NCBI GenBank assembly: GCA_022539475.1
Contig: VCMS01000361.1
Location: 31,050-95,049 of the forward strand
Length of the DNA: 64,000 bases
Direction of reading: 5' to 3'
Origin: Gracilaria domingensis
Taxonomy: Eukaryota; Rhodophyta; Florideophyceae; Gracilariales; Gracilariaceae
Below, piece by piece: positions 1,736 through 33,784 of this stretch (position 1 is its first letter; every line of letters begins with the position of its first letter). The notes under the pieces were generated by a model. It worked only from the letters and a program-made list of their open reading frames with translations. It searched no databases and had not been told where the DNA came from. Both the position numbers and the translations under genes were made by a program.

Positions 1736-4700
1736 ATGGTCTACTACTGTACACATAAGAAGCCTGGGTGCCGCTTCGTTACTCGCCGAGGAGTCTTATC
1801 TCTTCAACAGCATGTCAACCACTGACCGTTTCGTCTGAAAGCAGCGCTGGAAGACGACAATAGGCGGCCCATTCGGAGAAGCCAGCGTCTCAAGCTTTCC
1901 GCGCCCGCGGCCGCATCTTCCGAAACGGTCCTTGCCCCTTGTCGCCTTCCCGAGCCTCCGGTGTCCGAGGACAGCGTTGACCCCACTCCATTCGCCCCTC
2001 CCATTCCGGAAACTTCGCATTGTGTTTCTCCTTCCCCGGGTCCCGCGTCATTAGAGCGAGAATACGGAAGCAGTTCCCGCCCAGTGCCTTCTGAGGAGGC
2101 CCTCGGTGATTTGCATATGGATTATCTCACGGTTTGTCTGCCTTCAGTAGCTTCCAATCTTGGTCATCGTGAGGCAGACGAGCTAATTGGGCTACTTCGG
2201 GACCCGCGATTCTCGCAAAAGCGATTCAACGAGACCATAACAAGTTCCAAGCGCTGTACAGAACTGAAGAACGCCATTTTCGAACGATACGCCTGAAAGG
2301 ACGGTTTCAATCGAAGAACTGTCTCGCCAGAAGGATGTAAGTTCAGCGCCACCCTCTACACGAGAGACCCCGTTCAGACACTTGTGAAAGAGCTCTAGTT
2401 GGCTAACAACGAAAACACATTCTTCCACCTTATACCTCAGACCCACTGCACGAAAATATCTCACCCCATGCCCGGCTCTCTCGCAAGATACGCCACCTCA
2501 AAACTTAAGAAAATGGTCATGGGCTCTTTGGATAGTAGAACAGTGTGGTACTCCCAAGAAATAAGTTACAGTGAATCTTTCGTAGGTCTTCTGCAGGTAT
2601 ACACCGATAAGTCTTCAACAACTCTAAAGCAAACATCGGTTACGGCCTATTCTCTTTACCTCATATTTCTCAACTTCTCCGACGAGCTACGCCGTAAGTG
2701 CATCCGTGATGACCTCACAGTAGTGGCATACCTTCCTACTACACTGCTCGAGGCTTCCCCATCTGAAGCAGACGCAATGCCATTCGTTTCTAGCAAGTCT
2801 CTACGCGAGTCCAGGATGCAAATCCTTCAAGAATCTCTTCGTCAAGTCCTGGAGCTTATTCTAAATCTCACGCAGAAAGGTTTTCAGTTCATCGGCGAAG
2901 AAAAACTAAGTCGAGTGTGCCATTCTCTGCTTGCAAGTTATTGTGCGGATATTCCTGAGGCTAAGGACATTCTGTCCATTCTTCATGGGACCAAAACGGA
3001 AAGCCCGTGTAATAGATGCAAAGCCCCTTGCTCATCTTTATGCAGTCCTATTCCCACCTCATTCAACAGACGTTCTCAAAAGCACACGAAAAGCATCCGA
3101 AAGACATACACAGCTATCTTGCAACATGCACAAAAAGACGAGGCGGAAAGACGTCCACGTCGTGCGAGGGAGAGGAGATCTCAAGAGGATACTCTGATGC
3201 GTTCAAATTCCATATCTCTCATTCCTTCGTTGCGCGAAACTTCCGTAAGCCTTGGAATGATCCCGGGATTGTCTCCATACAGTCTGTTCTCATTCGAACC
3301 ATTACACAACTTGCATCTCGGCATCTCGAAGCTGATAAAAACGGCCACAATCGAGAGACTGCAGTCAGACACCCTGTGCACCACAATAGGAACATCTGCA
3401 TCGCGTTCATTTCGAACGATACGCACCCAACTCCTCAACCATGCAAACGCAATTCTAGCTGCCATAGAACGCGATTCTCCTGCCAAAGGTTTACATATCG
3501 ATTTCTCCACGCAGGACAAAGCCAAATCTTTGAATGGTATCTTCACGAAAGACGGTCTCCGTGGAATGCTGGAGGCCAAAAACTACAAAGCACTTGACAT
3601 GGTCTTCCCCTTCATAGGAGCATTCTTTGACATATGCTGTGAAGAACAGGAAGTTGCTCCAATCACAACCGTTTTCTCTCAGTACTCGGACTTGCTTTCG
3701 ACCTTGTTCAGATTCAATCGTGACCCGTATTGGACTGAAAGCTCTCTCCTGTGTCTTAGTTCGGAGATTGAAGCCTTCAAGCGTTGCGTAACAAAGAATC
3801 TGGCGGATTTTCATCCCTCCAGACTGGGAACTCAGAAGTTTCATCTTCTCGATCATCTCGTGGACGATATTCGCCGTCTGGGAAGTATCAAGTACTACGA
3901 CGCAGGCATATACGAACATGCACACCTGCTATTTAAGAGACACTACAAAAAGACGTCCAGAAGAACAGCAACGGCTGTGGAGGAGACTATTCGCTCCATT
4001 GAGCACGGACATGTTAGAAAGCAATGGAATGGCAATACTCCTTACCAGCGTAATCCAGGTTTACCAGGAACTTCTACGCAGCTTCCTCGATTTGCAATGA
4101 GAGGGCGTTCTTTCACTTTACGTGCTCTTCAACATTGTGTTTCAAGTATGTCCAGTTCAAAAACATGGACTGCTGTTAGAGAGATGTTCTCAAGTACGGA
4201 CACAAGGTCGATTCTTGACCAAATTGGTGAACAGGCCCTTCCTCCTTTCCTCAGTCTCGTGAAAGAAACACTGGATGAGCACTTTATTACATACTTCCCA
4301 GAAAAGACAAGGATAACTCTGGTGAATTCGGCCCTCTTGAAAGGCGGTTTCGTTCCGACTCTTGAACACTTCGATTCGTCTTCTAAGGCACTTAAGCTGG
4401 GACGACCAAATACCCCATCATCCAACGAGTCATCGCTTCTCCAGCATTTGGTCCCAGTAGAAAGCCAAATTTTTCCACTGTATTGGTAAGCGGAGAAGAT
4501 TCAGAGACTTGGGTTGCCCAGGTAGTCGCTCTGATTCGAATATCTCTCCTTGATTCTGCACTTACCGCACCAGAGGTGGCATTCGTCCGGTATTTCGAGG
4601 TTTTACCCCCCGCAACAAACATCGACCACATATTGAAATGCATATCTTTACGGTGGGCTACAAACGATGAAAAGAACCACACTCTTCCGTTCCCTCGTCA

Positions 4701-4914
4701 TTCCAAAGCGGAGACTATCGTAGAGTTAACTCCTTGGTACGGGATGGTTCCGGCTTCTGCACTACAGGGAACTGTCCATGTTGTTAGATCAAACTACCCT
4801 GCTCCACTTTTTTGTCCTCCACTTCAATGGTTTCAACACCGATTCTACATCAATCGATTCTATCATGATTCAGATGAAGGACCAACTGAGCACGTTGATT
4901 TTGTACAGCCTTAA
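1736..4914 (+). pseudogene. Large DDE transposase, Plavaka/CACTA-like, with nonsense codons
   Basis: Probably the transposase of the giant element to its right, catalysing cut-and-paste movement. One reading frame runs from the ATG at 1736 to about 4485, then shifts by one base and ends at the TAA closing at 4914. It is interrupted only by TGA at 1823, TGA at 2294, TAG at 2396 and the frameshift. The N-terminus holds a C-x6-C...H-x2-H zinc-finger-like motif (about 1748-1822). A Cys cluster (CNRCKAPC) lies near 3007-3030, followed by a motif with F-E-P-L-H-N-L-H-L-G near 3292-3325. That motif recalls the D/E...H...LG.K signature of tnp2/Plavaka/KDZ transposases. The C-terminus (WYGMVPASALQG) also recalls that group. 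It ends tail to tail with the next minus-strand gene, 3 bp apart or overlapping. Family assignment is by motif memory only; the coding status as a pseudogene is clear. Confidence 0.6.
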
Positions 4915-7584
4915 ACATTAAGGGCTCCATCCTCTACATGTTCATCTTGTGGTGCCTTTTCTTGTGATCCTGTGCTACTTCCGAAATCGTTCATGTCCAT
5001 TTCCTTGAACTCCATATCCCCTTCCTCGCATTCACCAACGAAACAATCGCTAACAGAACCCAATCTTTGGCTCACACTGTCAATAAAAAATTGTTCTTTC
5101 ACAGTGAGGTAAAGTCTTCCGTTCGACGGCATTCCATATCCAAATATAGCCTCTCTCATGTCATTACCAAGAACCTTAGTCTAATCTTCCGTTGTCGTTC
5201 CAAAATTATGAAACTCGCTGGAATTGGTCCTCAAGACACGTTGCCTAACATCCCCCAGAACATTCTTTAAACACAGAGGTAGCAGTTGGGCAAACTTCTT
5301 TTTAAACAGTTTCTGTCTCTGGCCACCCCTTGACACACCCGTACTTAGAAGGCTCACAACCGTCAACACCCAAGCGTCCAAACGTGCGAGCAACAGTATT
5401 GTGCCATCTAAAAAGGTGCCCTTATCCTCGTCTTTTACATCATACCCAATAAACTCCTTCAGTACTTGTACCCCGACACGGTTTCGGAAGAACAAGTCTT
5501 GATCTTCCGTCAGCATATCCTCGACATTGTCCGCATTGGATTACTTTAGACGAACAAATGGGGCTTTTCTCCACCATCAAGTGTTCGGTACACCATTTTC
5601 GTCAAGACGCAGTATGTTCTCCTGCGCTTCCTTCAACTGCATTGTGAGTTCGTCAGCATTCTCTTCTACCAGCTTTGTTCTTCTCCAAATCAGATGGTAC
5701 CCCAGGAGCAGAAATAGTTTATCCCTCGTAATTCTCTTCCCAACGCCCACGACGTCACTCATGGTCTGCCGCATTCTCTGCCTAAGGCACATATCTGCAC
5801 AAAGTTCCAGTATACACCTGTCGGTAAGAGATGCTTTTCTAATAGCTTCCCAACTCAACTCCTTCAACTCGCTTTCAACCATTTTCTTCAGCAAAGCATC
5901 TGGCCCCCCCCTCTACCGACGGTGTGAACATGCCAAAACTGCCCAAGAGCTCCACGGGGTTTTTAGGAACCATGTATGAACCACCTTCCTCGGCCTCAAT
6001 AAGCCCTTCCCCACTCTCAGTTGCGTCTTCCACCTTCTCGGCACGCATTCCAATTAGAAAACCCATCGGGCCCTCTATTGATATTTCTTGGGTTACCCCA
6101 ATTTCGGGTGAGCGACTCACCTTCGAGCCTTAGCTCACTTGTTTCTCTTCTTGCCCACGTCAGCATGTTGTGCTACACTGCTCGAGCAACCACTCGAAAC
6201 TCGTCGCACACCTCAATTTTATGCTTCTTTCGACCTGTCTGCCCAGGTTCACCAGCACGTGTACTCCTATCTCCCTCCTGTTTCAGTGCCCCCCTTAGCC
6301 CTTCAATGACTAGATCCTTCTCTTCAAGCCTCTTTTTTAAAGCCGTACTCTGCTCTTGGGCGACCTTCACTAGAATAACCCGAACCATCAAGTCCTCTTG
6401 TAGCGTCTTAACCTTTTCTTTCAAGCAATTCAGTTCATTTAAAAGATCACGTCTGTTCATAGAGGTTGAATTCACATCAGTGTGGATATCTTCCGGTATT
6501 TCCCTAGCCTCTTCGGCGACAGGCCCCGATAATGCCGCAGGATTCGGTGTTATTTCGTTATCGGAACTATCCTCATGTGCCATACCCTTAGACACGAGAG
6601 GCTGCAGGTGTCTGTGTCCACCCTTGGCACGGCTGCGAGCTCCAACTCCCGTGTCTGTCCTCCTCTATAGCATCGTATATCAGATGAATTGGGCCTCGTA
6701 CGAGCTGCAACGGCCCCCGTTCTGGAAAGAGGGGAAGGTCGAAAAGTAACTCGTCTATCAGTTGTCTCTCGATTTCTTATTGTCTTTCTCCCTTGTCCGG
6801 ACCCATTTCGAGGCATAATACGATTCATAGCGGACCCAGTTCTAGAAGACAGGGAGGGACGTGACGATCTTAATATACTAGGGCTCTCACGACTTCTCGT
6901 CATTGTCCCTTGTTGTCCAGATCCACTGGGCGGCGTAACCCGCGCCCCAGTAGCTCCGGTCTTCGATATCGGCCGGGGACATGAAGGTTTTGGTGTCATA
7001 CGAACCTCTTCAGTTCCAGTTGTCATGCCCTCCTGTGCTGACCCGCTGGACCGAGTTACCTCATCTTCTTGAGGAGCAGAGAAAGATGCACGATTTGCAT
7101 TATCGGCAGTTGACGGCACGACATCGTTCGCTGATCCACGAATTTTTGACGCAATCCCGGAAGACGCTCCGCTGCGAGATGGGCGAGAGAGTACTGCAGA
7201 AGGACGCCCACTGACTCTCTCCTTCGTCGAGGACGACTTCTGTTAAGGAAGTGCGGTGCTTGTAGCCTGATTCGTATCATCCGATGCTCTTCTCTTCTTC
7301 TGTCCACTCTTGTTCCGCTGCGTACTATTTCGCTTTCTCGGCGTTATATCCACGTTGTGGAGATAAACAGGGTAATGAAACGAAATTTTTTGGGGCGGGG
7401 GAGGGGGTGGGGGGGGTGCATGGTTCAGATATTCCGGGACACTCCGCAGTTCCTGCTTTTTAGGAATTTGAGGTGCCCAATGGGTCGCAAATATCGCCGT
7501 TACAAATAGATAAAGAGCTCCAGTGTACATGTACAACGCGTATTGCAGGCAGCTGCAACATTCACAAGCATATTTACTTTCCAT
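4911..7584 (-). pseudogene. Ser/Pro-rich repeat and coiled-coil protein (left copy)
   Basis: A minus-strand gene starting about 17 bp beyond the stop of the methyltransferase-SET gene; I do not recognise the family. The N-terminal part has a proline run and a Lys/Arg-rich stretch. Three tandem imperfect repeats of about 40 residues follow, each starting near GSGQ and ending in a P-x-P...SRTGA-type motif. Next come an acidic segment, a coiled coil (NELNCLKEKVKTLQED region, about 6395-6440), a helical region and a second coiled coil near 5580-5640. The frame is broken by a stop near 7243, frameshifts near 6550-6600, 6130-6170 and the C-run near 5905, and in-frame stops at 5577, about 5537 and 5181. 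The same gene in the right arm (32063-33783) has an open frame through the repeats, which confirms the gene model. It may be a structural or DNA-binding accessory protein of the element; that is inference. Confidence 0.55.
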
Positions 7585-7600
7585 TCGGTACTGAACTCAT

Positions 7601-10600
7601 CTATTGCTCCAATGTCAGAGCCCAGTCCCAGGCGTACTGCTCTCCGTAGTTGAAATACAACTCTTTGACCCTCTCAATATCTCTTACTGCTCTACAACGG
7701 AGTAGAGCATAGTTAGAAAGGTCGGACTTGAACTGTATCACGGACTTCGCTTCCACCACCTGCACATTGGCACTTCGAGTCCTGTTTGACCGGGGCTGCG
7801 ATAAATCGGGATCCCCGGCATGATATCCGGCGTCGTTAATGTAGCCCCCGATACAAAAAGGCGCCGGGACAATGTACACTTCGCTCTCCTTTCTATCCTG
7901 AGCCTGTTCTGGTCTGTTCCTCAGGTGCAGAAACTCCGTACCAGTCCAGTGACCATCATAGAAAACAACTTGTACCGCACTGGAGTTGCTCCGAGACAGC
8001 CACTTCCATACGTTAAGTGTCTTTCCTTCCGGTTCGTCAGATCCGTGTATACCAAAGTTCCATAAAAATGACAGATAGTTTCCCCAGCCAATATCTTATG
8101 TTCCGTGAACACCCCCATACCAGCACGGGGATGTCGAATCTTAGAAGATGCTACATGTAAGCGATAGCGATTGGCTTCAACAGTCAACAGCATATGCATA
8201 TCCATTAGATTCAGAGCTCCTCGGTACTTCTCCTCCCAAAGATCTACAGTATGCTGTCCACACTTGTCGACAAAGTCCCAGTCCTTCCAGTATCTTCCTA
8301 GAAACTGAGTAATATGTGCAGGCATCACTTGGTACTGGGGGTATCCAAATCGAGCCTCCCATTCAAGCCGATCTCGGTCCGGATGTGGAACCCGTTCATA
8401 AGTCGTTGAAGCAGCATCCACCACCTCCTGTTCAACCAGGATGTCATTCTTGCCCCCGCGAAGAACTTCGGCCATAAGAGTCGTTATATGGTGCTTCGCA
8501 TGGCTGAAACTTGGCCTATTCTTCTCGCACCCCAAGAACTTCCTATGCTTTGTCAGCGATAGGCACGCCATACCCGTAAAAAAAGTTCCCGCGAACATGT
8601 CCATGACAAGATCACCCGATCTTGTGAAGCGACATATCAACTCTTTCATCAACTCCCTGGACTTCTTCTCCGGTCTTATGTACTGACCACTTGGTACTGA
8701 ACTACCTGGCTCATTTACCTTCCATGTCAACCACTCCCCCGCTCTCGGTTTTGGCACCCGGTCAATTACATTCCTGTTTGCCGGGAAAGTAAAAGGAATG
8801 AAATTGTTCTCATCAAATGGAGTAAGACTGGCTTCCTCGGATGGTCGCAATCCACGCTTCACCCCATGAACGGCGTACTCCGTTACGGGCTGTATCCTAA
8901 ACTTCCGTGGATTCCCTCCAACATTACTTCGATCCCGGATGAACACCAGTGGATTCCCATCCACTTTAAACTAAGGCATGAGTTCTGGCTTACCTTCGCT
9001 TCCAGCTTCATCTTTCGTACTCGCCGTTTCCGAAAGTATCCTGTGCCAAACATGAAACTGTGCCATGGCACAGAATATAATGAAGTGCCCACCTGAACGA
9101 AGCGCGGAACTTATTAAGTCAGCCGTACTGATCATGTCATCCTCACTGAAGACATCGTGAGCACTATTCCGTTTGTTCCTCTTCCTTCGAGTGTTAAAGG
9201 GAGGGTCTGTTAGTACAAGCTGTGCCTTACCCCATAAAATCTCACTCTGATTCACAAATGTTTCGTGTGTGTGCCTCAGGTCCTTCATGTCACAGTTGTA
9301 CGCTACAAAGTGTGACTTTCTCATCCCCTTCCACACCTTGTCCATATTCATTCGAAGGAGACTGGATATCCCCTTCATGGGCCGCTCAATACCAGTTTTT
9401 TGGATTTTGTAACCGGCAACCCGAGATTCATGCTCCGCAAGATTCACCGGCTTCTCGAAGTCGTCGCTGTCGGAGCTCACGAGGTTCATATACTCTCGAC
9501 GAGGTGGGGGTGGGGCAGACTTGGTCAAAGAAAGTTCGGCAATACCGGAAGTTTTAGGGGTTTTCGTCAGTTCAATATCAGGTTTCGCGTGAATGCCGAC
9601 ATGGAACCCTGCCGCATGACGCATATCCTGTATCGGTTTCCATAGCAACTCCGAAAACTTCTGAAATCGAGCAGGCAACTCACCGGAGTCAGAACCAGAT
9701 ACGGTATCCATCCGTATCTCCGAAAACTCTATCCAGTTCCTCATCTGATCAGCCCGTAAGCTATAGAGGCTATGGTGGGTGCATATGGTTTCGAGGTCTG
9801 TCAAAAATTCCTTAGCCAGTATTCGGAGGTTTGTATCGCATTCATCACTCAAGGTCTCCACCGATCCACTAGTACTGCTCTGTGGTACATCCTGTGTGTT
9901 CAATCGAGTACTCTGGCTCGGCGGGGCATAACCAGACTCCCGTGTCTCTAGCGCTGTATACTTCAACGTCTGCATATTCATGTACATGTATGGTTTCACC
10001 ATGTGCTGAACGTTCGTGTATCCAAGATGAGCCGCAAAACAACTCTATGCCCATACGACCTCACTGATAGCGAATCCCAGTCGATCACAGTTGTCTTTGG
10101 AGAACGACGTAAAAGTGGTATGTACACAGATGGTGCATGGTTCACTTTTCGTTTCTTTTTCGGTTGTTTCTTCTTTATCATTCGGATGTTGTCGTTCTCT
10201 CCCATTATGTGGCCGATGTATGATAAGTATATAACGACCTCAAATGGGTTCACAGCTGTTGGTGGGATGAACACTGTCGTCTTCAGAACCTGCTTTCTCC
10301 TGGTCATGAAATAATCAACCAGGCATCGCACCGGTAGGTATATACCCATATCCATAGAGAGAAGGAAAAAATCGCGGAGTCTCTGGTCCTCATCTCCGTC
10401 CTTCTTGTCAAGAAGCTTCGTTACAAGATATCGTTGTTCCACAGGTTTGTTATTCACAACACTCTTTCGCAGCAGTTGCAGTGTCAAGTTCTGCAGGTTC
10501 TTGGAGTTAGTGGCCTCCTCAAACATCTTCCTTTCCTCCGGAATATCCCTATAGTTCTCGGCGCAGAACTCTATTAGCCCTCTAAACCCCACGTCCCGTG

Positions 10601-10736
10601 GCCAATCGGGGCCTCCATCGCTGTTTGCCAAAGCATCGCGAAGAACCAAGAAAAGTCTGACATATGCATGGAACGCCGGAGGCGGAGCACTCATGTCGAT
10701 AGGATGTATCTCCTCTCCATCATCGGTGGAATCCAT
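7601..10736 (-). pseudogene. Fusion: helical N-terminal domain, beta-class DNA methyltransferase, SET domain (left copy)
   Basis: Ancestral product of about 1,045 residues. Residues 1-200 form an unknown helical domain ending in a basic nuclear-localisation-like motif (PKKKRKV, residues about 192-198). A low-complexity linker follows. The methyltransferase has DPPF (motif IV, 9196-9207) before the SAM-binding FAGTF-TG motif (about 8571-8602). That order is typical of beta-class N6-adenine/N4-cytosine methyltransferases. The C-terminus is a SET domain with AGMGVF (about 8099-8122), an NRTRSANVQ stretch where SET proteins have NHS, and ELYFNYG (about 7640-7663). Lesions are a 1-bp loss near 10119, TAG at 8968 and a 1-bp loss near 7950. 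Each is intact in the right copy. Predicted role: nuclear DNA methylation coupled to lysine methylation of histone or other protein. Domain calls come from family motifs; activity is inference. Confidence 0.75.
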
Positions 10737-10753
10737 CGCTTCAGCGCAAACAA

Positions 10754-10852
10754 CGGAGGCGAGCCTTTAAATGGCGACTTACGCTGGGCACCCCCGCTTT
10801 CGGCAGCTCCTCCCAGCGCATTGCCAGTCTCGTCCGTGTCCGTGTCCGCTCC
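10754..10852 (-). promoter_or_regulatory. Core promoter of the methyltransferase-SET gene, mirrored at 11548-11645
   Basis: About 95 bp upstream of the ATG at 10736 contains TTTAAA at 10766-10771. It is the near-perfect reverse complement of 11548-11645, which lies upstream of the divergent ParB-dioxygenase gene. Such duplication implies that both genes use the same core promoter and probably the same regulators. Transcription starts cannot be placed from sequence alone. Confidence 0.6.
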
Positions 10853-11034
10853 CTTCTGAGGTCGGTGTCCGTGCCGCTTCGAGCGGGTGCGATAGCGTCG
10901 CGTGTCGGCCACGTCGCCATTTGGAGCTATTGCAAAGGTCGCGTATTGTGCTAATAGTCGCGGACCAAGTGGGTGTGAAGCGCTAGTTTTCTCTAGTTTG
11001 ATATATCTGCACGGCGTGTGCAGCGAAATCACTG

Positions 11035-11345
11035 CCGGAAGTGCCGGGAGGAGTGCTTTGGAAGGTCTCGGGAGGGTACCAGAATGTTGCCGGAACGTGC
11101 TCGCGGGCGGGGGGGGTCGGTCGTGTTAGGGTACCTACCCTAACACGACCGGGGCCCCCCGCCCGCGGGCACGTTTTGGGCGATTTTTGGAAAAATGTGC
11201 GATTTTATGCCCGCGGGCGGGGGGATCCGATCGTGTTAGGGTACCTACCCTAACACGACCGACCTCCCCCGCCCGCGAGCACGTTCTGGCCACATTCCGG
11301 CGCCTTCCCGGGACCCCCCAAAACACGCCGCCTCGCAGTGATTTC
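11035..11345. repeat. GC-rich palindromic unit between the divergent genes (left copy)
   Basis: The segment is an imperfect inverted repeat: 11039-11125 matches the reverse complement of 11265-11345. Inside are two hairpins of the form GTGTTAGGGTA...TACCCTAACAC (about 11131-11156 and 11233-11258), flanked by C/G runs and GCCCGCGGGC. TTAGGG followed by its complement is telomere-repeat-like but occurs only once per arm. Equivalent units lie at 28230-28565 and 27530-27720. It could be an operator or insulator, a replication or transposition site, or a nested MITE. Confidence 0.7.
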
Positions 11346-11547
11346 CCTACACCCGGCCGCCGGTACGTTGGCGCCGCTGTCCACGTGTATTGGCGGGAGT
11401 AGGTTGTACATGAAAGTGAATGAGTGTACTCTTGACTACTATGCAAAGCATTTGAAGAGCACGATTAGAGAGCGCGACCATTGCTCGCGTGAGTCATCAT
11501 TGCGCGAACTCCACGACTCTAAAGCGTACAATCAGCGTGCGAGCGGC

Positions 11548-11645
11548 CACGGACAGGACACGGACGACACTGGCAGTGCGCTGGGAGGAGCTGCCGAAAG
11601 CGGGGGTGCCCAGCGTAAGTCGCCATTTAAAGGCTCGCCTCCGTT
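11548..11645 (+). promoter_or_regulatory. Core promoter of the ParB-dioxygenase gene, mirror of 10754-10852
   Basis: TTTAAA at 11626-11631 lies about 80 bp before the ATG at 11708. The surrounding block, which includes GGAGGAGCTGCCGAAAGCGG, repeats the opposite promoter in reverse orientation. Confidence 0.6.
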
Positions 11646-11707
11646 CTTGTATCGTCCAGAGCGAGCGTATTGTTGATATACACCTTTCACTGCAATAGCT
11701 GTTCAAC

Positions 11708-14700
11708 ATGAAGCCAACTCGTGTTCGAAAGCGTACGCAAAGCGTGACTCCTCGCACTCGGCGGAGCACTCGATCATTGCAAGGTGGAATGCGGGTTTCT
11801 CTGCAGATGGATATTGAGAATGAAGGAAAGGTGATAGTCGGGGAAGCGTTGTTGCATGGAGTTGGAAGTGTTCTACGCCGCGAGTTTAACGGGAAGCAAT
11901 TGGACCCAGGTCTTGTGGTGGTTCATAATATTCTCATCAGTCGAAGCGGTCAGACGTTCTACCCTTACCGGGCGGAGGGCCTGGATCTTCCACAATACAT
12001 CCAGGATCTCTGGATGGCCGCTCCTTGGGATGAGAAAATGATGGAACCGGTGGCAGCCAGCATTTCGGCGTCCAAGCGACGAACAGTGAGCGCTATGAGT
12101 GAGGTGATGACGCCGACAAGCCGCACGGAGCCAATTCGAAGTTCATCAACACCGAGAGGTAGCGCATCAGTAGCACCTCCGGGGGAGGTCCGTCGTCTGT
12201 TACGAAGCGGTCTATGGAGACGAGATCATCCCCAGCTACGAAGCGGACAGGTCAAGCAAAGTCTACCTCCGCTACGAAGCCCACTGCGTCGAAAAGGGCA
12301 TCTCCTGCGATGAATCAGACCGTCGACACAAGGGAATTTCTGCGTCGAAACAGACGGTTCAGCACGGGACGGCTGAGCAAGAAGAGGAAGATGAGATAAT
12401 AAAAGGTCCCCTTCCAGACGCGGATGCGCAATCTGCACAAGGAGCTGGTCCATCTGTACCCCAAACTGCACCAGAAACTGCGGAGCAGCAGGACGATGAC
12501 GTTGTGCTTCTGTGCGCAAGATGGCACGTTCAAGTGTTTCTGGTGAGCGGTCTGGAACACAAGAGACACCTACTCGGAGCAAGACGTACAGACGAATTCG
12601 TCAGAAGGTACCAAAGGTGAACCTCAATCACTAGCGGATGGTTGTTGCTACTGTTGACATCACTCTGGTAAACACTCCGCCCAATTTACTCCGTGGAGTA
12701 AGTAAACGCCACGTTGAAGCCCTTGTGAAGAGTATGGAGTAGCGGGAGATATTGCAGTCGATGGGTTATCCAGTGGTGGCCTTACAAGATGCTACTACGG
12801 GACAGAGGGATACTGACAAGGGACGCCTAACGAAGAAGTGCTTCATTGTAGATGGTTTGCATCGTCTGAAAGCTATACAATATTTGGCAGCGACTGGTGC
12901 ACCGAAGTGGAAGCGATTAGCCAAGTTTTGGCGTTGCAATCTGCTGATACGAAGAGATGGGAGGCCCATTGGGATGAAGGAATTGTTATGTGTTGCTTCG
13001 TACCTCAATGAGTCGACGAGTACCATGCGAAGGATGATGTTTGCAGACAAGATACACTCTATAGTTAGTGTGGTCGCCATTCTAATTGAAGATGTTGAGG
13101 GGGTGACGCCGGCAGACGTGGATCCTGCAGAAGTGACGGAAGTGTTGAAGGAGATCCAACTGATTGGGACTGTGCAAGAGCGTCAGTATCTGAGATATGC
13201 CAATGTCGCCCTGCAACTCATGTCTCGTGAGGGAATGCTGGCCCATTTCGAGGATATATGTGAGAGTGTGAGTGACATAGGTCTCACACATCTGTCCCAT
13301 ACTCCGCTATATGTTTTGGATGCCGAGGAGTTTTCCTTCATTCTTGATTGTCTTTAGATGTTTCTATTGAAGGGCAAGTCGACGAAGACAAAGCACTTGA
13401 AAAGCTTTGAGGAGGTTCGAGGTTTCTTTTATGATAGAGCAGTGTCTCTGTTCCGCGCGGCTCGAGCAGTGAGGAATGAACTGAACGAGGAAGAGTCCAT
13501 GGAAGTGTTCTTGAAACGCGAATTCAGTCTTTCTGCTCCATCGAATGAAGATGACGTTGAAGACCCTGACAACAATGCAGCTGTGTATCAGTTCCTTTTG
13601 GGACAATTTGTGAACTTCAACACATTGCCGCGTGTTCGAGCAGGACGAACTCAATTAGAACTGCCACGACTTCCGTTCAGAATCGATTGCGGACGATGCT
13701 CAAGGTAATTCCCCCCCCGCACCAGTGAAGCAGTCCGTGACGAAGAGGAGGACTCCTGCTGCTGCTGCTGCGACATCTGCCAGTCAAGAAGGGATGCCAC
13801 GAAGAAGTGCACGAGAACGGGCGCAGGTGAGTTATAGGGAAATTGAGCACGGCCGAAATCGAGGTGCCATAGAAGTTCTGGATAGCTCTGAAGAAGAACA
13901 GCGGGCTCCGCCGAGGAAGAAACGGAGAAAAACTTTCACACAACAGATGAGATCTACTCTGAACAGCATGACACCGGATGACCTGATGTCTCAACTAAAT
14001 GAACATGTGCTGAGAGGAAGGTCGATGAAGGTTCAGTTCGTGGCATTGGGAGAGGGAGCGAATGCAGAGAACGCAGGCAGTTCTGCATTTGTGGATGACG
14101 AAGAGCTTCTTGCTGTGATAGTTCCACGTGTTGTCACCGTCGAGAAAGATGCTGCGCCAGACGATCAGCAAGAGACGGGTCGGGGGTCATTTGATGACGA
14201 GTTACATACAGCTCTTCCGGAATCTGAGGAGCACGGACTTGTTCGACGAGACCCATATGATCACCCACCGAACCCATCATGGTGCGGGTATATCAGGCTG
14301 AGACCGCAGGAATGGAAAGGGAAGAACGTAATTGAGCACAAGGACCCCTGGCTCAGAGTCATTCACTTGCCGAAGGGACATAGGTCGGAGCTGCTAAGTG
14401 TCTCGAATCTCAGAGATGTACACCATCTTGTCTTTTGGCACGCTGCAAGGGCTGAACATCGCCTACGGGCGGAGACATTTGGTATGCAGTATCCTCGTAT
14501 TCGGCCGACAGGTATGGATGATGAAGAGGTGCTGTGGGTTGCTGCGAAGGAGCATGACGAATTTGGGCACATGTTCTTCGCCCGAATGCAAGCTGAGCTA
14601 AGGCAGAATGGATATTGCGTGCTTGATGGCTTTGCGACGGATAATGGTGTCCCTAAATGGGAGGAGTTGGAAGAAGTTCGGGAGTTCGGAGATGTGTCGG

Positions 14701-15620
14701 GGAAGTTGGTGGACTTCTTCGAGAATGAGTACGGAGCGATGCAGGATATACGGAAAAGGGAGGAACAGAAGTCGTTTGTACAAATAATCAACGATGATGA
14801 AGGATGGAAGGACGGTAGCGATGGACCATTTGAGAGGAGAGTGATGTCGACACGTTGGGGTACGGTGGAGAAGCCGGATGATAATGAGGAGCTCAGGTGG
14901 GTTGTATGGTCGCGTGCTTTACTTGATGTTCGAATGGGTACAATTGCTGCGGCTTTGGGACTATGGGACAATGAAAGGGAAGCTGTGAAGATGTACACTC
15001 CGAAAACTGGTGGTCGATTTCTGGGGACGACAAGAAAGTGCAAGCGCCAGACGCTGCACACCGATTTCAGTGGTCTGGTTACGAAGGAAACCATGAATAC
15101 TGGTAACCGCGGATACTTTGTAATGGCCTCTGGGAAAGAGGGCTTTCCTCTCTGGGTGAGCGCTGGAAGCCATCAACTGGTGGGGATGAACAACCAACAG
15201 TTGCGAGTGATGTCGGAGGTGTATCCAGCGAAGAAGATAATCATCCCACCGTACTCTGTATTCATGGGCCGTGGTGATGTGACACATGCTGGAGCAAGTG
15301 GGAAGGACAAGGTAGATAGGCCCGAGTCTATAGATGTGCTGGTTAGATACCACATGTAGATGGTACCAGAGTGCTACGCACTACCTGATGCTGTTCATCA
15401 GGTGCGGCATTTCCGACCCACGTTTGTCAATGGTGACGAGGAGGAGTAGGCGGAGGATGAACTCTTGTCCGATAAGGAGGATGGGGCGGTTGACATGGAA
15501 GAAGACCAAGTGGTCGTGGAGATTGGTGTGGAAGCGGAGGCCGGTAGAACTGAAGTGCTCGAGAGTAGTAGGGATGACGATTTGCCAATAATGAGGCTGC
15601 GAGCGCCTCGAAGTGGATGA
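11708..15620 (+). pseudogene. ParB-like domain fused to 2OG-Fe(II) dioxygenase (left copy, decayed)
   Basis: Same gene as the nearly intact right copy (23811-26912), but this copy keeps the 5' end. It starts at the ATG at 11708, with an Arg-rich N-terminus, a segment of about 60 residues missing from the right copy, and a Ser/Thr/Lys-rich linker. Lesions include a frameshift near 12180, a 1-bp loss near 12510, TAG near 12632, TAG near 12738, TAG at 13355, a frameshift near 13640 compensated in the C-run near 13712, TAG at 15357 and TAG near 15448. The longest surviving frame (13725-15359) holds the dioxygenase domain: HTD near 15058-15068, GDVTHAGA near 15274-15297 and the Arg of VRYH near 15340. 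The order ParB, basic linker, double-stranded beta-helix is the same in both copies. It is not functional here. Confidence 0.75.
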
Positions 15621-15876
15621 GAATGAGATGGTTAGTAAATTATGAGTGTCTTGCGAGTATTTAGAGTAGTATACTATTGCAAGGCTATACATATGAACAT
15701 AGAAAAGGTGCGGCAGGCTGGTAATTGAACAAATGTCATATTCTTTGATCTGTTGCGTCTAATTGGAACATGCTTGGTATCGTTAACATCATTGGTGGCA
15801 CCATTCAATTCACAATTGAACATGCAGCGTCCTAACACTTCTGAAACTGCACTTAAGGTTGCTTTTAAGAGAAGTA

Positions 15877-16783
15877 TGAAACTGAGAAGTCTATGCAGTT
15901 CCTGTCTATGCTGTACTTGTGGCAGTATGGTGACTGTATCAGGAAAAATGGCAGAGGAACAGAGAGACTTGGCGGAAATTTTACCCAATACCTTTCTAAG
16001 TTCATATATGCCAATGGTTACGGTATATTAAGTTCCGTTGATGGAACGTTGAGAAGAGAAGGAGAGTCAATTCCAGAAGAAGTTGTGAAGTGTATGAAGT
16101 TCATTGACGAACGTGTTGGTTTCGGACTTGTCACAGGGGGTGATGTGGGCGACGTGGATGGAAAATGGAAGGACTCGGAGACTATAAGTTTGGTGTCTCG
16201 GCGAATCATGGAGCTTTCCTCCGTTCTCTGACGAGAGGGAAATTAAGGCTGCATTCAATGATCACACCCTTGACCACACTGTTGACGGACTACTGTTCCT
16301 GGCAAGGGATTTGAATAGGAGGCATGGTATTGTAAATGATGATGAGAAGGGGTTCGTGGAGACCAGAAGTGATAGTGGCCTTCCCAATTTCGTGTACAAC
16401 AAACTGTGGCAGTGGAGAGAAAAAGTGGATTCTGCTATTGGGGACCTGTTGCAGAAGATGGATGCGTTTGTTATCTATCCCGGCGATAAAAGTTGCGAAA
16501 TTGTGGACAAGCGATACACAAAAGGAAGCGGAGGAGTAAATCTTGTGGATAATGAGCCGAGATTTATTGATACGGATGACGTCGTGACGTTCGGAAGTGC
16601 TTTGAGCGACGGGCCTTTGCATGAGGTAGGCGTGTACGGCGTTCACGTCAAAGAAGATTGTATCCCGGGTGGAGTACACAACCTGTTCGAAAGCTTGAAG
16701 GATGTACATTCGACAATTATGCTGGTGGCCTGTTGTACGGCTACGAGGAAAAGCAGCTCGATAAAAACCACCATGAATCATAA
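15877..16783 (+). pseudogene. HAD-superfamily phosphatase-like protein 1 (left copy)
   Basis: Homologous to 22635-23546. HAD motifs can be followed: motif I as SxDGT (about 16030-16045, first Asp replaced by Ser), motif II as VTGG (about 16129-16141), a TPP/Cof-like cap region, and motif IV as FGSALSDGPLHEV (about 16589-16627). Relative to the right copy, single bases are lost near 15990, 16222 and 16730, so the protein cannot be made whole. It lies downstream of the ParB-dioxygenase gene on the same strand and tail to tail with its paralogue at 16832-17704. The first motif-I Asp is the usual nucleophile, so even the ancestral protein may have been non-catalytic. Confidence 0.65.
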
Positions 16784-16831
16784 AAGGGTATTGAGATATA
16801 TACGACACTTTTATTACTGAGCTCTCATATC

Positions 16832-17704
16832 CTAGCTAAGTATTACAGGCATCGTAGCACTTAAACAAATTCCAAGAGCATTTCTAAACCATTGACACTT
16901 GCATTTTCTGTACCCGTACAGTTCTGCCACCCTTCTGATGGTCTCATGCACGTCCTCCACCCCATCAACAAGATATGTTACCGTTGCAGGATGGTCGTCT
17001 CCCTTCACATGAACTGCCAGGGTTGCCATTTCATATAGAGGGCCATCATTGGAAGCATTCCCGAAAGCAACGATTAAATGTGTGTCGAACTGGGGGTCGT
17101 TTTCAACCAAGGCTAGCGCCCCACTATTTTTCGTGAAACGAATGTCCCCTATGTCACAGTTTTCATCCTGAGGGTACGCAACCAGGTTCGGAAAGGATGT
17201 CAACACTTTTGAAATACCGGAGTTAACTTCGGTTTTCCACTTCGACAGTCCATTGTACGTGAAGTTAGGGAGTCCACTGTGTTTTCTAGTGCTCACAACT
17301 GCTTGTTGACGCTCTTCGTGAAGTCCGTGCGATTCATTTAAGGAGAGTGCAAGTCTCTCAAGTTCGGCTGCACATCTTTCGTAGCCTTCCCTGTCAAGGA
17401 CCTGATCAATTTCGGTACCATTGGATAATCTCACCCGTGCGCCTTGGTTTCCAGAGATGCCAAAAGTGTAGCCACCCAGGTGCTCCATGAAACTCTCGGC
17501 ATCCTCTATATCTCCCCAGTAGCAATTCCGAAACCAACGCGTGCATTGATGTACTTCATGCATTTGACTGTTTCGGCAGGAATGTTCTCCCCACCTCTTT
17601 TCAGGTACCGTCAATATCACTAATCACGGCGTAGCCATTTTCGAATATTTCGTTAGCCAGCTGCTGAGGAGTTACTTCTTGGGCTCTAACTTTGAGTTAT
17701 ACAT
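16832..17704 (-). pseudogene. HAD-superfamily phosphatase-like protein 2 (left copy)
   Basis: A paralogue of HAD protein 1 in the opposite orientation. It retains motif I as DIDGT (about 17604-17618, VISDIDGT), motif II as ATGG with one G lost (near 17515), a cap region, and motif IV as FGNASNDGPLYE (about 17035-17075). The main open frame is 16832-17620. Frameshifts just after DIDGT and at motif II, and one near the C-terminus (right copy ends CFKCYDACNT), break it. The start is probably the ATG at 17704 with a further shift. The overall pattern resembles HAD type IIB sugar-phosphate phosphatases; the substrate is unknown. Confidence 0.65.
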
Positions 17705-18279: not shown

Positions 18280-19099
18280 TTAACTATCTCTAAAAGGTTT
18301 ACAACACCGAAAAGTCATGTGTTCTAACCTCAAAGCTGGGGAATGGGGAGGGGGATAACTTTTCCTTAACAACGTTGACGTATTTGTATGAAAAGGAGCG
18401 GGGTCACTGCCTACGATGTTTCTTTCTTGGCGGGAAAAGTCGTAGAAGTACGCGTTCCTAAACTGAAAGTCGGAGAAAGAAGTAGGGAAGCCAATGAGAG
18501 TTTTCCCATATGCAAGAAGTCGCCCAACGGTCTCTTCCAGGTTGAAAGTAGTACCTGTCTTAAGCGAAACTATCTTCAACAGCTCTTTCATTATTGTGAG
18601 CACAACCGTACTGCACTCCGTAGCGACTACGTCCATAGAATGAAACTCTTGAGGCCCCGACGATGTGAACGCTGATAGCCACACGAGCTTCTCATAATAG
18701 CTTACGAGAAATGTGTCTTCGTCGACAACCCCGCAAGTGAGACCCATAGACCTAAACCTGTCTGCAACGTTGGAGGCCCACTTTCCTGTTGCGACAGTGA
18801 GACCATCCGGACTTTGAGAGTGACACCATCCTGTGGAGCTGCGTTTCTTGAGGGACACCAACGTATAGGACAACTTTTGAACATTTGTCCACACCGAGCT
18901 TCGAAACCAATGGTATGATGTCTCCATTCTGGAAGAAAACGAGATTCTCTCTGAGCGAATAAGGGCAAGCCTGAATTACGGTCTCCAGGGTGTTCGTTCT
19001 TCCACAAACTAGTATCGGTACATCAGAAAGATGAGAGGTAGCAGCCATGCTGCAGAATTCGTGTGCGGAAATGACCATATCTTCTTCGTTCGCCAGCAT
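18280..19099 (-). pseudogene. Possible ketopantoate-reductase-like gene, frameshifted
   Basis: Two minus-strand frames, 19099 to about 18930 and about 18850 to 18280, appear to form one protein. The first contains a segment reading DVPILVCGRTN...ENLVFFQNGD, like the conserved QNG loop of 2-dehydropantoate 2-reductases. The second has a GLTVATGKW...EKLVWLSAF stretch, compatible with the later part of that family. The assignment is weak and rests on these motifs. It lies in the unique spacer and so may be host DNA trapped between two element copies. Confidence 0.35.
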
Positions 19100-19642
19100 G
19101 GTACCTATACGCCCCTTCCAACAATAACGGCCCGAGTCCTTCGGGCGGGAGATGAGGCCTGAGGGACGTCAGAGTATCTGGGACTCGGAGGCGGAGTCGG
19201 AAGCATGTCGGACTGGAGTTCATTGCATGTTCGATGTTTTTGTGTGACGATAAAAATGGAAGATGGGGCGGAGAACTGCTGGGGTAAAGAGTGATACTTA
19301 AGTACAAACGGTTGGGAAGCGCAGAACGGGAACATGGTTCACTTTGTGAAAGTGAGCGAAATGTATGATATGTGATTGTACTGAATGAATGATAGGGCTT
19401 GTATGAGACGACAAGCCACAAAGTGTGATGATGTTTTATGAAAAGTAGGTGGAAGATAGAAAGTGTACAATGAATGAAACTGATTTCGAACCTAGTTGTA
19501 AAGTATTGTAAAGTACGAGTTACGGGGAGCTTGAATACAGGATGAAAGGAGCCATTTTGGCTTCATAAATGACGTGAACGGGTTCTATAGCTTCACTCGG
19601 ATTGCCATAATCTTCTTTTTTATTGAGGTATAAAAGGGGAGT
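19100..19642. other. Intergenic between divergent spacer genes
   Basis: No convincing gene. The short Ser/Pro-rich minus-strand frames (19105-19421) look like chance. The interval may hold the promoters of the reductase-like gene and of the epimerase gene. Confidence 0.4.
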
Positions 19643-19931
19643 GTGTCTGGGAAGGACGGGTTTGGCGTTACTGAAGTTATCGATGTTCAGTATGGATTCT
19701 CGTTAATTATAGCGCCATCAATTTTGGCTTCAGACTTTGCTCGCCTTTCAGATGAAGCGAGTGCAATGGAAGAGGCTGGAGCGGAGTGGCTGCATATAGA
19801 TGTAATGGATGGTCATTTTGTGGCGAACCTTACTGTTGGACCGCCTGTTGTGAAAGCGTTGCGGAGCCATACGAAATTGTTTTTGGACGGTCATCTGATG
19901 GTTATCAGAATCTCTGGGCGCTGGATAAAGA
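19643..19931 (+). pseudogene. RPE: Ribulose-phosphate 3-epimerase N-terminal fragment
   Basis: The translation from about 19700 reads [13 protein letters not shown]...[25 protein letters not shown] and then DGHLMV. These are hallmark N-terminal motifs of ribulose-5-phosphate 3-epimerase (Calvin cycle and pentose phosphate pathway), including the DVMDG metal/substrate motif. After HLMV the expected N-P-x-x-WIK is out of register (about 19900-19931), which suggests a small indel or poor sequence at the contig edge. The run of N then cuts it off, and no C-terminal part appears after the gap. It is probably a host gene or host fragment; the start at 19643 is only the first ATG of the frame. Confidence 0.75.
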
Positions 19932-20042
19932 NNNNNNNNNNNNNNNNNNNNNNNNNNNNNNNNNNNNNNNNNNNNNNNNNNNNNNNNNNNNNNNNNNNNN
20001 NNNNNNNNNNNNNNNNNNNNNNNNNNNNNNNNNNNNNNNNNN
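19932..20042. other. Assembly gap (111 N)
   Basis: Unknown bases. Sequence continuity and the true size of the spacer between the inverted copies are uncertain here. Confidence 1.
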
Positions 20043-20400: not shown

Positions 20401-20412
20401 AAATAGTGGAAG

Positions 20413-21516
20413 GTGCGGAGGTGTACAGTGGATGTTTTGGCGGGAAATGGGATGAGGGAAACAGGGACAATCATGGTGCTGGATATAGCCCGTGTGGTTG
20501 GACAGTGGGGGTGGACAGCACAGTTTAGCTCGATTGCACTGTATCGCAGCGGAAACTTCGATCCAACTACTACTTCTTTTCTGAATATGTCGAACGGATA
20601 CGTGAAGGATGAGGAGCTGTGGGTGCTGTTGGAGGGGAAGGAGGTACCGCAGACGCCGTCACCAAAGCGGGAAGAGGACGTGATTACGGCGGCTGGTCGG
20701 ATGTCGCAGAAGAAGGAAGTGGCTGAGGAAGGAAAGAAGTGTGAGGCGAGGAGAGGGGATGGTGATGAGGTGGAGAAGGGGGTAGAATTGGAGGTGGAGG
20801 GGGTCGCAATGGAGAGAAGGGGTGCGGTGCATCTGAGTCAGTTAGAGGTTGGAGACCAGATAGAGAGTGGGGGCGGAGAGGGTGACAGGGAGATGCGGTT
20901 TGTGGGGGAGATGAAGGCGAGGGTGGGGATGTTGGGGTTGGTGATGAAGGAGCAACTGGACGATGGAATTGTGGAGATTGTAACGGAAATGGGCGGTGTG
21001 GTGCTGAGTGGGGGTGGTAGTGGTGTTTCGGTTGAGGCGATTTCGAGCTTGCGGAATTCGTTGTCGGTATTGGGAGTGGAGATGAGAAATCATGTGTATG
21101 GGATAGTGGAGTGTGCGGGAAGGGAGGTTGGAGAGTTGCGGGAGGAGAATAGGGTTCTGAACGAGAGGTTGGACGTGCTGGAGAAGGAGGTGAAGGAGCT
21201 GTGCAAGAGGCAAAGATTGGTGGAAGAGGAGAGGGTGAAAGGAGGTGTGGAGGGAAAGACGGAGAAGGGAAGTGTGGGAAGGGTGGCGGTGCAGAAGGGG
21301 TCTCCTGTGACACCGAAGACAAAGGGTGGTGGGGTTGGGGATGGGAAGAGCCGTCTGAAGAAGAGGCGTAAGGAGATGAAGAAGGTGGTGGAGGAGGTGC
21401 CGCGGGAGGGAGTGGGAGCTCCGGTGGTGACTGGGTTTAGGAGTGCGGCGGAGGTAGCGCGGACTGCGAAGGGGATTCTGAGGGGACAGGAGGAGAGAAG
21501 GATGGGAGGGATTTGA
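20413..21516 (+). CDS. Coiled-coil protein of unknown function
   Basis: An uninterrupted 367-codon frame, a rare intact ORF in this window. The first 75 residues are mixed; the rest is rich in Glu, Gly, Lys and Val with strong G-bias. A coiled coil (REENRVLNERLDVLEKEVKEL) lies near residues 237-265, followed by a basic segment (KSRLKKRRKEMKK) that could bind nucleic acid. I recognise no family. The composition could suit a retroelement gag-like or structural protein, but the G-rich low complexity also opens long frames on the other strand, so coding is only moderately supported. The first ATG (20413) is not specially supported; 20452 or 20473 are alternatives. Confidence 0.45.
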   Translation: MRRCTVDVLAGNGMRETGTIMVLDIARVVGQWGWTAQFSSIALYRSGNFDPTTTSFLNMSNGYVKDEELWVLLEGKEVPQTPSPKREEDVITAAGRMSQKKEVAEEGKKCEARRGDGDEVEKGVELEVEGVAMERRGAVHLSQLEVGDQIESGGGEGDREMRFVGEMKARVGMLGLVMKEQLDDGIVEIVTEMGGVVLSGGGSGVSVEAISSLRNSLSVLGVEMRNHVYGIVECAGREVGELREENRVLNERLDVLEKEVKELCKRQRLVEEERVKGGVEGKTEKGSVGRVAVQKGSPVTPKTKGGGVGDGKSRLKKRRKEMKKVVEEVPREGVGAPVVTGFRSAAEVARTAKGILRGQEERRMGGI

Positions 21517-21956
21517 AGCCGTTTTGGGGCGAGGCGGGTATACGAGAAGGGGGAGAGTTGTGCACCTGACTTCTACAAAATGAACGCGTGATGGGCGAGA
21601 AATGGGTAAATAGCGGGGGTGGTGTGGACTGGGAAGAAGTGATGGGATGATTGAGATGGGATGAGTTGCGATTGGCATTGCAACATGGGAGAAAATGGAA
21701 ACGCAAACTAGCACGAGTGCAGTTTTGAGAGAGGGTCGCGGAAAAGAGTGAATGGGGTGGTGCGGCGAAGTAGAACCTCTACAAAAACTAGGGGACCCAA
21801 GCACTAAACTGCGCGAAATGGAATTTAATATTCCAAAATTTCTTAATTTTTTGAGTGCCAGCCTCTGCTACCCCCTCGCGCGCCCCAAATAGCCCCAAAA
21901 CTAGCTTAGTTTCCAAAGCGAACAGACTATATTCCACTTTGCAGAACACAGACGTG
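21517..21956. other. Spacer up to the right-arm boundary
   Basis: No gene seen. Arm homology begins abruptly at about 21957 inside HAD protein 2, so this side of the element copy is truncated. Confidence 0.5.
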
Positions 21957-22582
21957 GCATCTCTGGAAACCAAGGCGCACGGGTGAGATTATCCAATGGT
22001 ACCGAAATTGATCAGGACCTTGACAGGGAAGGTTACGAAAGATGTGCAGCCGAACTTGAGAGACTTGCACTCTCCTTAAATGAATCGCACGGACTTCACG
22101 AAGAGCGTCAAAAAGCAGTGGTGAGCACTAGAAAAGACAGTGGACTCCCTAACTTCACGTACAATGGACTGTCGAAGTGGAAAACAGAAGTTAACTCCGG
22201 TATTTCAAAAGTGTTGACATCCTTTCCGAACCTGGTTGCGTACCCTCAAGATGAAAACTGTGACATAGGGGACATTCGTTTCACGAAAATTAGTGGGGCG
22301 CTAGCCTTGGTTGAAAACGACCCCCAGTTCGACACACATTTAATCGTTGCTTTCGGAAATGCTTCCAATGATGGCCCTCTATATGAAATGGCAACCCTGG
22401 CAGTTCATGTGAAGGGACACGACCCTCCAGCAGCGGTAACATATCTTGTTGATGGGGTGGAGGACGTGCATGAGACCATCAGAAGGGTGGCAGAACTGTA
22501 CGGGTACAGAAAATGCAAGTGTCAATGGTTTAGAAATGCTCTTGGAATTTGTTTCAAGTGCTACGATGCCTGTAATACTTAG
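21957..22582 (+). pseudogene. HAD phosphatase-like protein 2 (right copy, 5'-truncated)
   Basis: Open from about 21957 (GISGNQGARVRLSNG) to the stop at 22582. It covers the cap, the motif III region and motif IV (FGNASNDGPLYE) and ends CFKCYDACNT. The N-terminal motifs I and II, present in the left copy (17516-17620), are absent because the copy starts in mid-gene. The remaining frame has no lesion, which shows that the frameshifts in the left copy are secondary. Confidence 0.7.
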
Positions 22583-22634
22583 CTATGATATGAGATCTCA
22601 GTAATAAGAGTGTCGTATATATCTCAATACCCTT

Positions 22635-23546
22635 CTATGATTCATGGTGGTTTTTATCGTGCTGCTTTTCCTCGTAGCCGTACAACAGAGCCACCAGCAT
22701 AATTTTCGAATGTACATCCTCCACGCTTTCGAACAGGTTGTGTACTCCACCCGGGATACAATCTTCTTTGACGTGAACGCCGTACACGCCTACCTCATGC
22801 AACGGCCCGTCGCTCAAAGCACTTCCGAACGTCACGACGTCATCCGTATCAATACATCTCGGTTCATGATCCACAAGATTTGCTCCTCCGCTTCCTTTTG
22901 TGTATCGCTTGTCCACAATTTCGCAACTTTTATCGCCGGGATAGATAACAAACGCATCTATCTTCTGCAACAGGTCCCCAATAGCAGAATCCGCTTCTTT
23001 TCTCCACTGCCACAGTTTGTTGTACACGAAATTGGGAAGGCCACTATCACTTCTGGTCTCCACGAACCCCTTCTCATCATCATTCACAATACCATGCCTC
23101 CTATTCAAATCCCTTGCCAGGAATAGTAGTCCGTCAACAGTGTGGTCAAGGGTGTGATCATTGAATGCAGCCTTAATTTCCCTCTCGTCAGAGAAACGGA
23201 GGAAAGCTCCATGATTAGACGAGACACCAAACGTATAGTCTCCGAGTCCTTTCATTTTCCCCTCCACGTCGCCCACATCACCCCCTGTGACAAGTCCGAA
23301 ACCAACACGTTCGTCAATGAACTTCATACACTTCACAACTTCTTCTGGAATTTACTCTCCTTCTCTTCTCAACGTTCCATCAACGGAACTTAATATACCG
23401 TAACCATTGGCATATATGAACTTAGACAAGGTATTGCGTGAAATTTCCGCCAAGTCTCTCTGTTCCTCTGCCATTTTTTTTGATACAGTCACCATACTGC
23501 CACAAGTACCGGATAGACAGGAACTGTATAGACTTCTCAGTTTCAT
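22635..23546 (-). pseudogene. HAD phosphatase-like protein 1 (right copy)
   Basis: One frame from the ATG at 23546 to the stop at 22635, about 303 codons, broken only by TAA at 23352-23354 (left copy has a Ser codon there). Motif I is SSVDGT (about 23381-23398), motif II VTGG, then the cap region, a Lys-containing KGSGG segment and motif IV FGSALSDGPLHEV. The Cys-rich N-terminal stretch (SLYSSCLSGTCGS) precedes the HAD core. It pairs tail to tail with HAD protein 2. The Ser for Asp in motif I occurs in both copies and therefore predates the duplication. Confidence 0.7.
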
Positions 23547-31998: not shown

Positions 31999-32062
31999 AT
32001 GAGTTCAGTACCGAATAGAAAGTAAATATGCTTGTGAATGTTGCAGCTGCCTGCAATACGCG

Positions 32063-33783: not shown

Positions 33784-33784
33784 C

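Follow-up and report, generated by a model that had tools for sequence, protein, structure and literature searches.

We analyzed a 64-kb stretch of DNA from the red alga Gracilaria domingensis (assembly GCA_022539475.1, contig VCMS01000361.1, positions 31,050 to 95,049; GC content 48.7%, 111 N), hereafter called the window, to which all coordinates refer. Near its left end, a pseudogene for a Plavaka-type transposase lies tail to tail with a cluster of genes that, according to their predicted domains and motifs, would encode a methyltransferase-SET protein, a ParB-like/dioxygenase-like protein, two HAD-like proteins, and a basic, coiled-coil-like protein. The cluster occurs twice; the copy beside the transposase is termed copy A and the second, inverted copy is termed copy B.

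Transposase and cluster copy A:
1736–4914, plus strand: Plavaka transposase pseudogene (PF18759 profile match and frames of the open reading frames, ORFs)
5181–7596, minus strand: gene for a basic, coiled-coil-like protein, broken by stops and a frameshift (ORFs; coiled coil by eye)
7601–10736, minus strand: methyltransferase-SET gene with a broken frame, predicted to comprise an N-terminal region, a beta-type N6_N4 methyltransferase (DPPF) and SET (PF01555, SET; motif by eye)
10752–10848, minus strand: promoter-like sequence of 97 bp preceding the methyltransferase-SET gene (inverted counterpart at 11550–11645, 97% identity)
11015–11355, no strand: GC-rich inverted-repeat block between the divergent genes, with near-perfect palindromes at 11118–11151 and 11231–11258 (repeats, folding)
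11550–11645, plus strand: second, inverted promoter-like copy, upstream of the ParB-like/dioxygenase-like gene (97% identity)
11708–15620, plus strand: ParB-like/dioxygenase-like gene (N-terminal domain, ParB-like part, HxD...H...R), with five TAG codons and indels relative to copy B
15869–16780, plus strand: HAD-like gene 2, frameshifted (41% identical to HAD-like gene 1)
16832–17660, minus strand: HAD-like gene 1, frameshifted near DIDGT (HAD-IIB models on the copy B ORF)

Cluster copy B and its junction:
21955–33782, minus strand: second, inverted cluster copy (copy B), cut short on either side and with a rearranged centre (BLAST)
23811–26912, minus strand: uninterrupted ParB-like/dioxygenase-like ORF of 1033 codons, its start region lying in a different frame (26913–27485)
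27594–28473, no strand: three palindromes of the centre (perfect 34-mers at 28329–28362 and 28440–28473; the third mismatched)
28857–31938, plus strand: methyltransferase-SET gene, with breaks at 29160, 29604, 30487, and 31938
33784–34278, minus strand: HARBI1-type transposase gene (5' portion), fused to copy B where the latter breaks off (60–65% identical to the gene at 47381–48346)

The transposase pseudogene and the methyltransferase-SET gene

Residues 42–238 of the ORF at 2399–4486 match PF18759 with an E-value of 2.2e-16 and 60.4 bits (cut-off 26.3) over profile positions 87–273 of 325; the assignment to Plavaka is that of a domain profile match. Followed from the ATG at 1736, where the protein starts with what looks by eye like a zinc finger, the frame contains three in-frame stops before 2399 and shifts near 4400–4490 into the frame 4396–4914; this copy of the transposase is dead. 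Its 3' end (4914) faces that of the cluster (about 5181) across a gap of about 270 bp, so that the tail-to-tail arrangement described in an initial annotation of this DNA was confirmed.

The methyltransferase-SET gene spans about 1,045 codons (10736 to 7601), with the methyltransferase domain first and SET after it. In copy B, both lie within a single uninterrupted ORF (N6_N4_Mtase, E = 4.9e-11), in agreement with the fusion proposed initially; in copy A, reading through one TAG restores the full methyltransferase domain (PF01555 positions 2–213 of 221, E = 5.8e-14), and we regard the predicted methyltransferase label as firm. The DPPF motif of the copy A methyltransferase precedes the S-adenosylmethionine (SAM) motif, as judged by eye, an order that is the rule for the beta-type class; the DPPF motif would also point to adenine as the target base. 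SET scored just under its cut-off of 22.4 bits, with 20.3 bits (E = 0.00076) for a 162-amino-acid piece of copy B, 16.6 bits (E = 0.011) for the whole copy B ORF, and 13.1 bits (E = 0.14) for the copy A fragment; we regard SET as a good, near-threshold prediction. The SET region also weakly matched KMT2A chains at E-values of 0.07–0.4, KMT2A being an enzyme that acts on lysine 4 of histone H3 (H3K4). No relative of the methyltransferase-SET protein was found among 13 genome-contig stretches matching a pattern. The neighboring coiled-coil-like gene, present in both copies as the initial annotation had it, gives protein pieces that are 92–94% identical between them; the coiled coil itself was recognized by eye.

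The right arm and the divergent centre

All cluster genes but one are broken or truncated in copy A and copy B alike, the exception being the 1033-codon ParB-like/dioxygenase-like frame of copy B. By eye, its ParB-like stretch carries a DGLHR motif and its dioxygenase-like part carries HTD, an H after 73 residues, and an R 11 residues later; DGLHR as well as HxD, H, and R are retained in copies A and B. The best profile match of the ParB-like stretch was PHROG ParB (E = 0.037), and both putative identities are given here by motif only. A dioxygenase motif pattern was found at 32 viral loci; the exact peptide was present in 25, and just one of these also carried an HTD or HSD within that ORF, its context being unconvincing. 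The 47 loci retrieved for the ParB of phage P1, intended as a yardstick, were 97–100% identical, too uniform for a profile, and were not used.

HAD-like genes 1 and 2 are convergent paralogues with 41% identity. The copy B ORF of gene 1 matched HAD-IIB models at E-values of 0.0066–0.2 and has the motif DIDGT, where gene 2 reads SSVDGT; gene 2 matched no HAD profile. The HAD label is weak for gene 1, by profile, and is extended to gene 2 by its homology to gene 1. As to the initial annotation of these domains, the transposase scored above cut-off, the methyltransferase gave a full domain match, SET scored near its cut-off, and HAD weakly. Of the two putative HAD phosphatases, one is weakly backed by profiles and the other is its paralogue. 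The ParB-like-dioxygenase fusion holds as one long frame with conserved motifs, but neither of its domain identities was confirmed by a profile, by a structure, or by a relative.

The two arms diverge from a centre with unusual repeats. Two inverted copies of the promoter-like sequence are present in copy A and just one is left in copy B. Palindromes of the form TCGTGTTAGGGTA-CTACCCTAACACGA occur twice in the centre of copy A and three times in that of copy B, with mismatches in one of the five. Five palindromes whose arms reach 10 bases or more were found in the window; four of them fall in the two cluster centres, and none occurred in any of 10 shuffles. As single-stranded DNA, the 346-base inverted-repeat block folded far better than 100 shuffles (z = −18). 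The palindrome had no exact match in viral contigs and genome contigs. We read the divergent centre as a putative common regulatory, perhaps recognition, site; a plain alternative is that the palindromes are a nested foldback repeat.

Two inverted copies of the cluster

BLAST aligned 5768–11332 with 33782–28254 (94.7% identity) and 12038–17462 with 27398–21955 (95.9% identity), in line with the inverted duplication noted initially. About 11 kb of the cluster is duplicated in total; the intervening ~0.7 kb of copy A is matched in part only, and insertions and deletions set the two centres apart. Copy B ends inside the coiled-coil-like gene (33782) and inside HAD-like gene 1 (21955). At the former end, homology to the HARBI1-type gene at 47381–48346 stops no more than 2 bp from the junction, and copy B cannot be taken for a clean insertion there, because the remaining 3' part of the HARBI1-type gene is unmatched elsewhere in the window. 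The initial annotation had concluded from the duplication that the cluster behaves as a unit. Since copy B is broken inside the cluster at both ends and has lost any outer ends that it had, it neither shows a mobile unit nor says whether such a unit would include the transposase.

The segments compared between the copies contain 9 nonsense codons in copy A opposite sense codons in copy B, 8 of them TAG. We considered recoding of TAG and ruled it out, as copy B has TAG, TGA, and TAA breaks and TAA also interrupts other elements; the bias is probably chance. Repeat-induced point (RIP)-like mutation was also ruled out (340 transitions and 309 transversions, with no marked direction). In the C-terminal half of the methyltransferase together with SET, synonymous changes (20/326 sites) exceed non-synonymous ones (23/1120; p = 0.0006), and the same holds for eight of the nine segments pooled (91.5/1965 versus 201.5/6648; p = 0.0008), the ninth, HAD-like gene 1, being outside the pooled test. 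Hence, the proteins were selected during part of the copies' separate history. Such partial selection at the protein level, as estimated from these substitutions, would fit the lineages of an active element.

A probable giant Plavaka-type transposon

Copy A, with the transposase, probably represents the decayed remains of a single giant Plavaka-type (EnSpm-related) DNA transposon of at least ~16 kb that carried a marking cargo. Such an element is likely because comparable algal elements have been published (PMC12477816). The window yielded neither termini nor a target-site duplication (TSD), nor another copy that bears the transposase, so we infer the link between transposase and cargo from their adjacency. 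The giant transposon with epigenetic cargo proposed in the initial annotation stays the likeliest reading.

Several observations weigh against it. Copy B comes without the transposase and without either outer end. Plavaka termini are described as TGT..ACA or CATCA..TGATG with TSDs of 2–3 bp (PMC12730594). A search for 15-base terminal repeats starting with TGT, CAT, or CAC and flanked by 2–3 bp TSDs gave no candidates in three flank pairings (null mean 0–0.13), and inverted pairs between the flanks never rose above shuffles (20 per pairing), so that the check for repeats enclosing the unit came out negative in the flanks searched. The cluster's 97-bp promoter-like sequence is absent at the transposase. 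The ParB-like region has no ParB match in Pfam, the dioxygenase-like region has no Pfam match at E ≤ 10, the Tet_JBP profile included, and the dioxygenase-like protein matched nothing usable in the PDB or among phages and plasmids (one plasmid match, E = 10). AlphaFold, run with two sequences 93% alike, returned no usable model, with predicted local distance difference test (pLDDT) values of 28.6 for the dioxygenase-like and 36.1 for the ParB-like part. An hhalign comparison of the dioxygenase-like domain with a profile of phage 2-oxoglutarate (2OG) oxygenases, built from 6 of 12 extracted proteins, gave an uninformative probability of 0.1–0.3%. For the ParB-like/dioxygenase-like gene alone, the synonymous excess is not significant (p = 0.09). 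Finally, a role of N6-methyladenine (6mA) in transposon silencing has been proposed for animals (PMC12695648). As for the termini, the ends of the element may have decayed or may lie beyond the searched stretches.

It is possible, if doubtful, that the cluster is instead a mobile or repeated unit of its own, or else a host gene cluster, with the Plavaka pseudogene as an unrelated neighbor in a transposon-rich region. Transposons are indeed frequent in the window (HARBI1-type genes, one of them matching DDE_Tnp_4, a Gypsy element, and a reverse transcriptase match below cut-off), the duplication stops at 5768, short of the transposase end at 4914, and termini around transposase and cluster together are lacking. 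The absence of the transposase from the other cluster copy, which the initial annotation had named as telling against a single element, is real, but it is uninformative because copy B breaks off inside the coiled-coil-like gene, before reaching the transposase. The gap of only ~270 bp also speaks against separate units, as do the published giant EnSpm elements of red algae with accessory genes (cited in PMC12477816). Terminal repeats closing an element just after the transposase, likewise raised initially, were not seen, the best inverted pair in 4915–5767 being no better than shuffles. Pairs around the transposase alone (e.g. 1438–1463 with 5729–5754, 77%) were rejected, as their best score of 11.5 was below the shuffle maximum of 14.

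Left of the transposase, at 206–925, a sequence of ~349 bp is present in two tandem copies with 90% identity, which could be subterminal repeats of the element.

We consider a viral origin quite improbable, in which the cluster would be a piece of an endogenous virus, or of some virus-like element, whose enzymes modify the bases of its own DNA and protect it. The methyltransferase half does resemble phage methyltransferases (PHROG, E = 1.3e-17; 155 phage records, each with less than 60% identity), and a Gordonia phage has a ParB-like nuclease beside a TET/JBP gene (PMC9302106). However, neither capsid nor DNA polymerase nor packaging proteins were matched in 40 scanned ORF stretches, the viral contigs of IMG/VR contained no relatives of the ParB-like/dioxygenase-like, methyltransferase-SET, transposase, or HAD-like proteins, and the ParB-like/dioxygenase-like protein has no phage relatives.

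Possible role of the cargo

Under the reading as a giant Plavaka-type transposon, the transposase gene and the two divergent arms of the accessory cluster would have moved together, and copy B would be a second insertion or a duplicate, later truncated and rearranged. The ParB-like/dioxygenase-like protein would recognize the element, perhaps by its array of palindromes in the divergent centre. There, the methyltransferase-SET protein might place 6mA on DNA and methylate histones, and the putative dioxygenase might remove or alter a base or histone mark; the marks written by the methyltransferase-SET protein would keep the element expressed or shielded from host silencing. The HAD-like genes have no place in this scheme. 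We favor an anti-silencing role because 6mA is tied to permissive chromatin and H3K4 trimethylation (H3K4me3) across eukaryotes, where it is made by MT-A70 enzymes, a type other than the one found here (PMC12695648). In its most specific form, the cargo would be a self-addressing epigenetic cassette: the ParB-like part would nucleate on palindromes within the divergent promoter of the element and bring in a dioxygenase to erase or alter host marks, and a single polypeptide would write both 6mA and a histone mark on the same chromatin as a heritable 'leave open' label. We offer this form as a speculation of low probability.

Alternatively, the same giant Plavaka element could use its methyltransferase-SET protein to write repressive marks, thereby lessening the damage to the host or repressing rivals. 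We think this unlikely. The weak SET matches point to KMT2A, thus to an H3K4 enzyme, and the general association of 6mA with permissive chromatin also argues against repression. In its favor, the rotifer N4CMT, a bacterial methyltransferase joined to a chromodomain, helps silence transposons (PMC8885841), and the silencing role proposed for 6mA in animals points the same way.

If the cargo genes are what their predicted domains suggest, mobile DNA has fused a bacterial-type adenine methyltransferase with a eukaryotic histone methyltransferase in one protein, with a ParB-like/dioxygenase protein as its partner; a single enzyme would then suffice to test how 6mA is linked to histone marks, and transposon anti-silencing systems would reach beyond single TET/JBP or SET genes.

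Relation to known systems

The giant elements of Bostrychia reportedly belong to Plavaka. Red-algal giant EnSpm elements with several accessory genes are attributed to Bostrychia (Petroll et al. 2025, as cited in PMC12477816), and the likeness to the locus described here, an EnSpm-type giant with several accessory genes, is drawn from the citing paper. Transposon-borne proteins that combine a ParB-like part with an N4-methylcytosine (4mC)/6mA methyltransferase are described in brown, green, and red algae (PMC12477816). Sola1-1_Ec32 of Ectocarpus and its green and red algal kin are, like our candidate, large DNA transposons with an accessory ParB-like part and an N4C/N6A-type methyltransferase on the strand opposite the transposase (PMC12477816). 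Here, in contrast, the transposase is Plavaka instead of Sola1, and ParB-like part and methyltransferase are in two proteins, fused to the dioxygenase-like part and to SET, respectively.

EnSpm-Plavaka elements are also described in the green alga Auxenochlorella (PMC12633428). Kojima 2025 describes fungal Plavaka elements with TET/JBP genes as well as SET genes in oomycete transposons (PMC12730594). The former share with our locus a Plavaka transposase and an associated dioxygenase gene (dioxygenase-like by motif in our case), whereas here the Tet_JBP profile is not matched and the terminal signatures were not found. The rotifer N4CMT likewise joins a bacterial-type amino-methyltransferase to a eukaryotic chromatin domain, but that domain is a chromodomain reader instead of SET, and N4CMT is a host gene whereas the gene studied here is probably transposon-linked (PMC8885841). 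The giant repeats of Amoebidium are flanked by Plavaka and contain tyrosine recombinases (PMC11244446), none of which was recognized here.

Our literature search, with the paper on the Bostrychia giant elements outside its reach, met no methyltransferase-SET or ParB-dioxygenase fusion. Similar algal cargo being already published (PMC12477816), the novelty that the initial annotation had seen in such cargo shrinks to the combination: the pairing of methyltransferase-SET with ParB-like-dioxygenase is possibly new, and so, possibly, is the presence, between divergent genes, of a palindrome array together with two copies of a promoter-like sequence.

Neighborhood of the cluster

The Rfam scan of the window at gathering scores gave no match. 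Immediately right of copy A, 18280–19562 contains broken reading frames, possibly of a host gene, that had no significant match in Pfam/NCBIfam. A ribulose-phosphate 3-epimerase fragment (19634–19942; PF00834, E = 2e-25) runs into a stretch of N. Between copies A and B, 20407–21516 encodes a 369-amino-acid coiled-coil-like ORF with a strong GC skew of +0.43 to +0.48 and a weak Csm1_N match (E = 0.041). Further right, a CNOT1-like fragment at 45661–47130 (PF25097, E = 2e-8) apparently belongs to a host gene, and a lone 27-bp palindrome lies at 48774–48800, near the HARBI1-type transposase gene.

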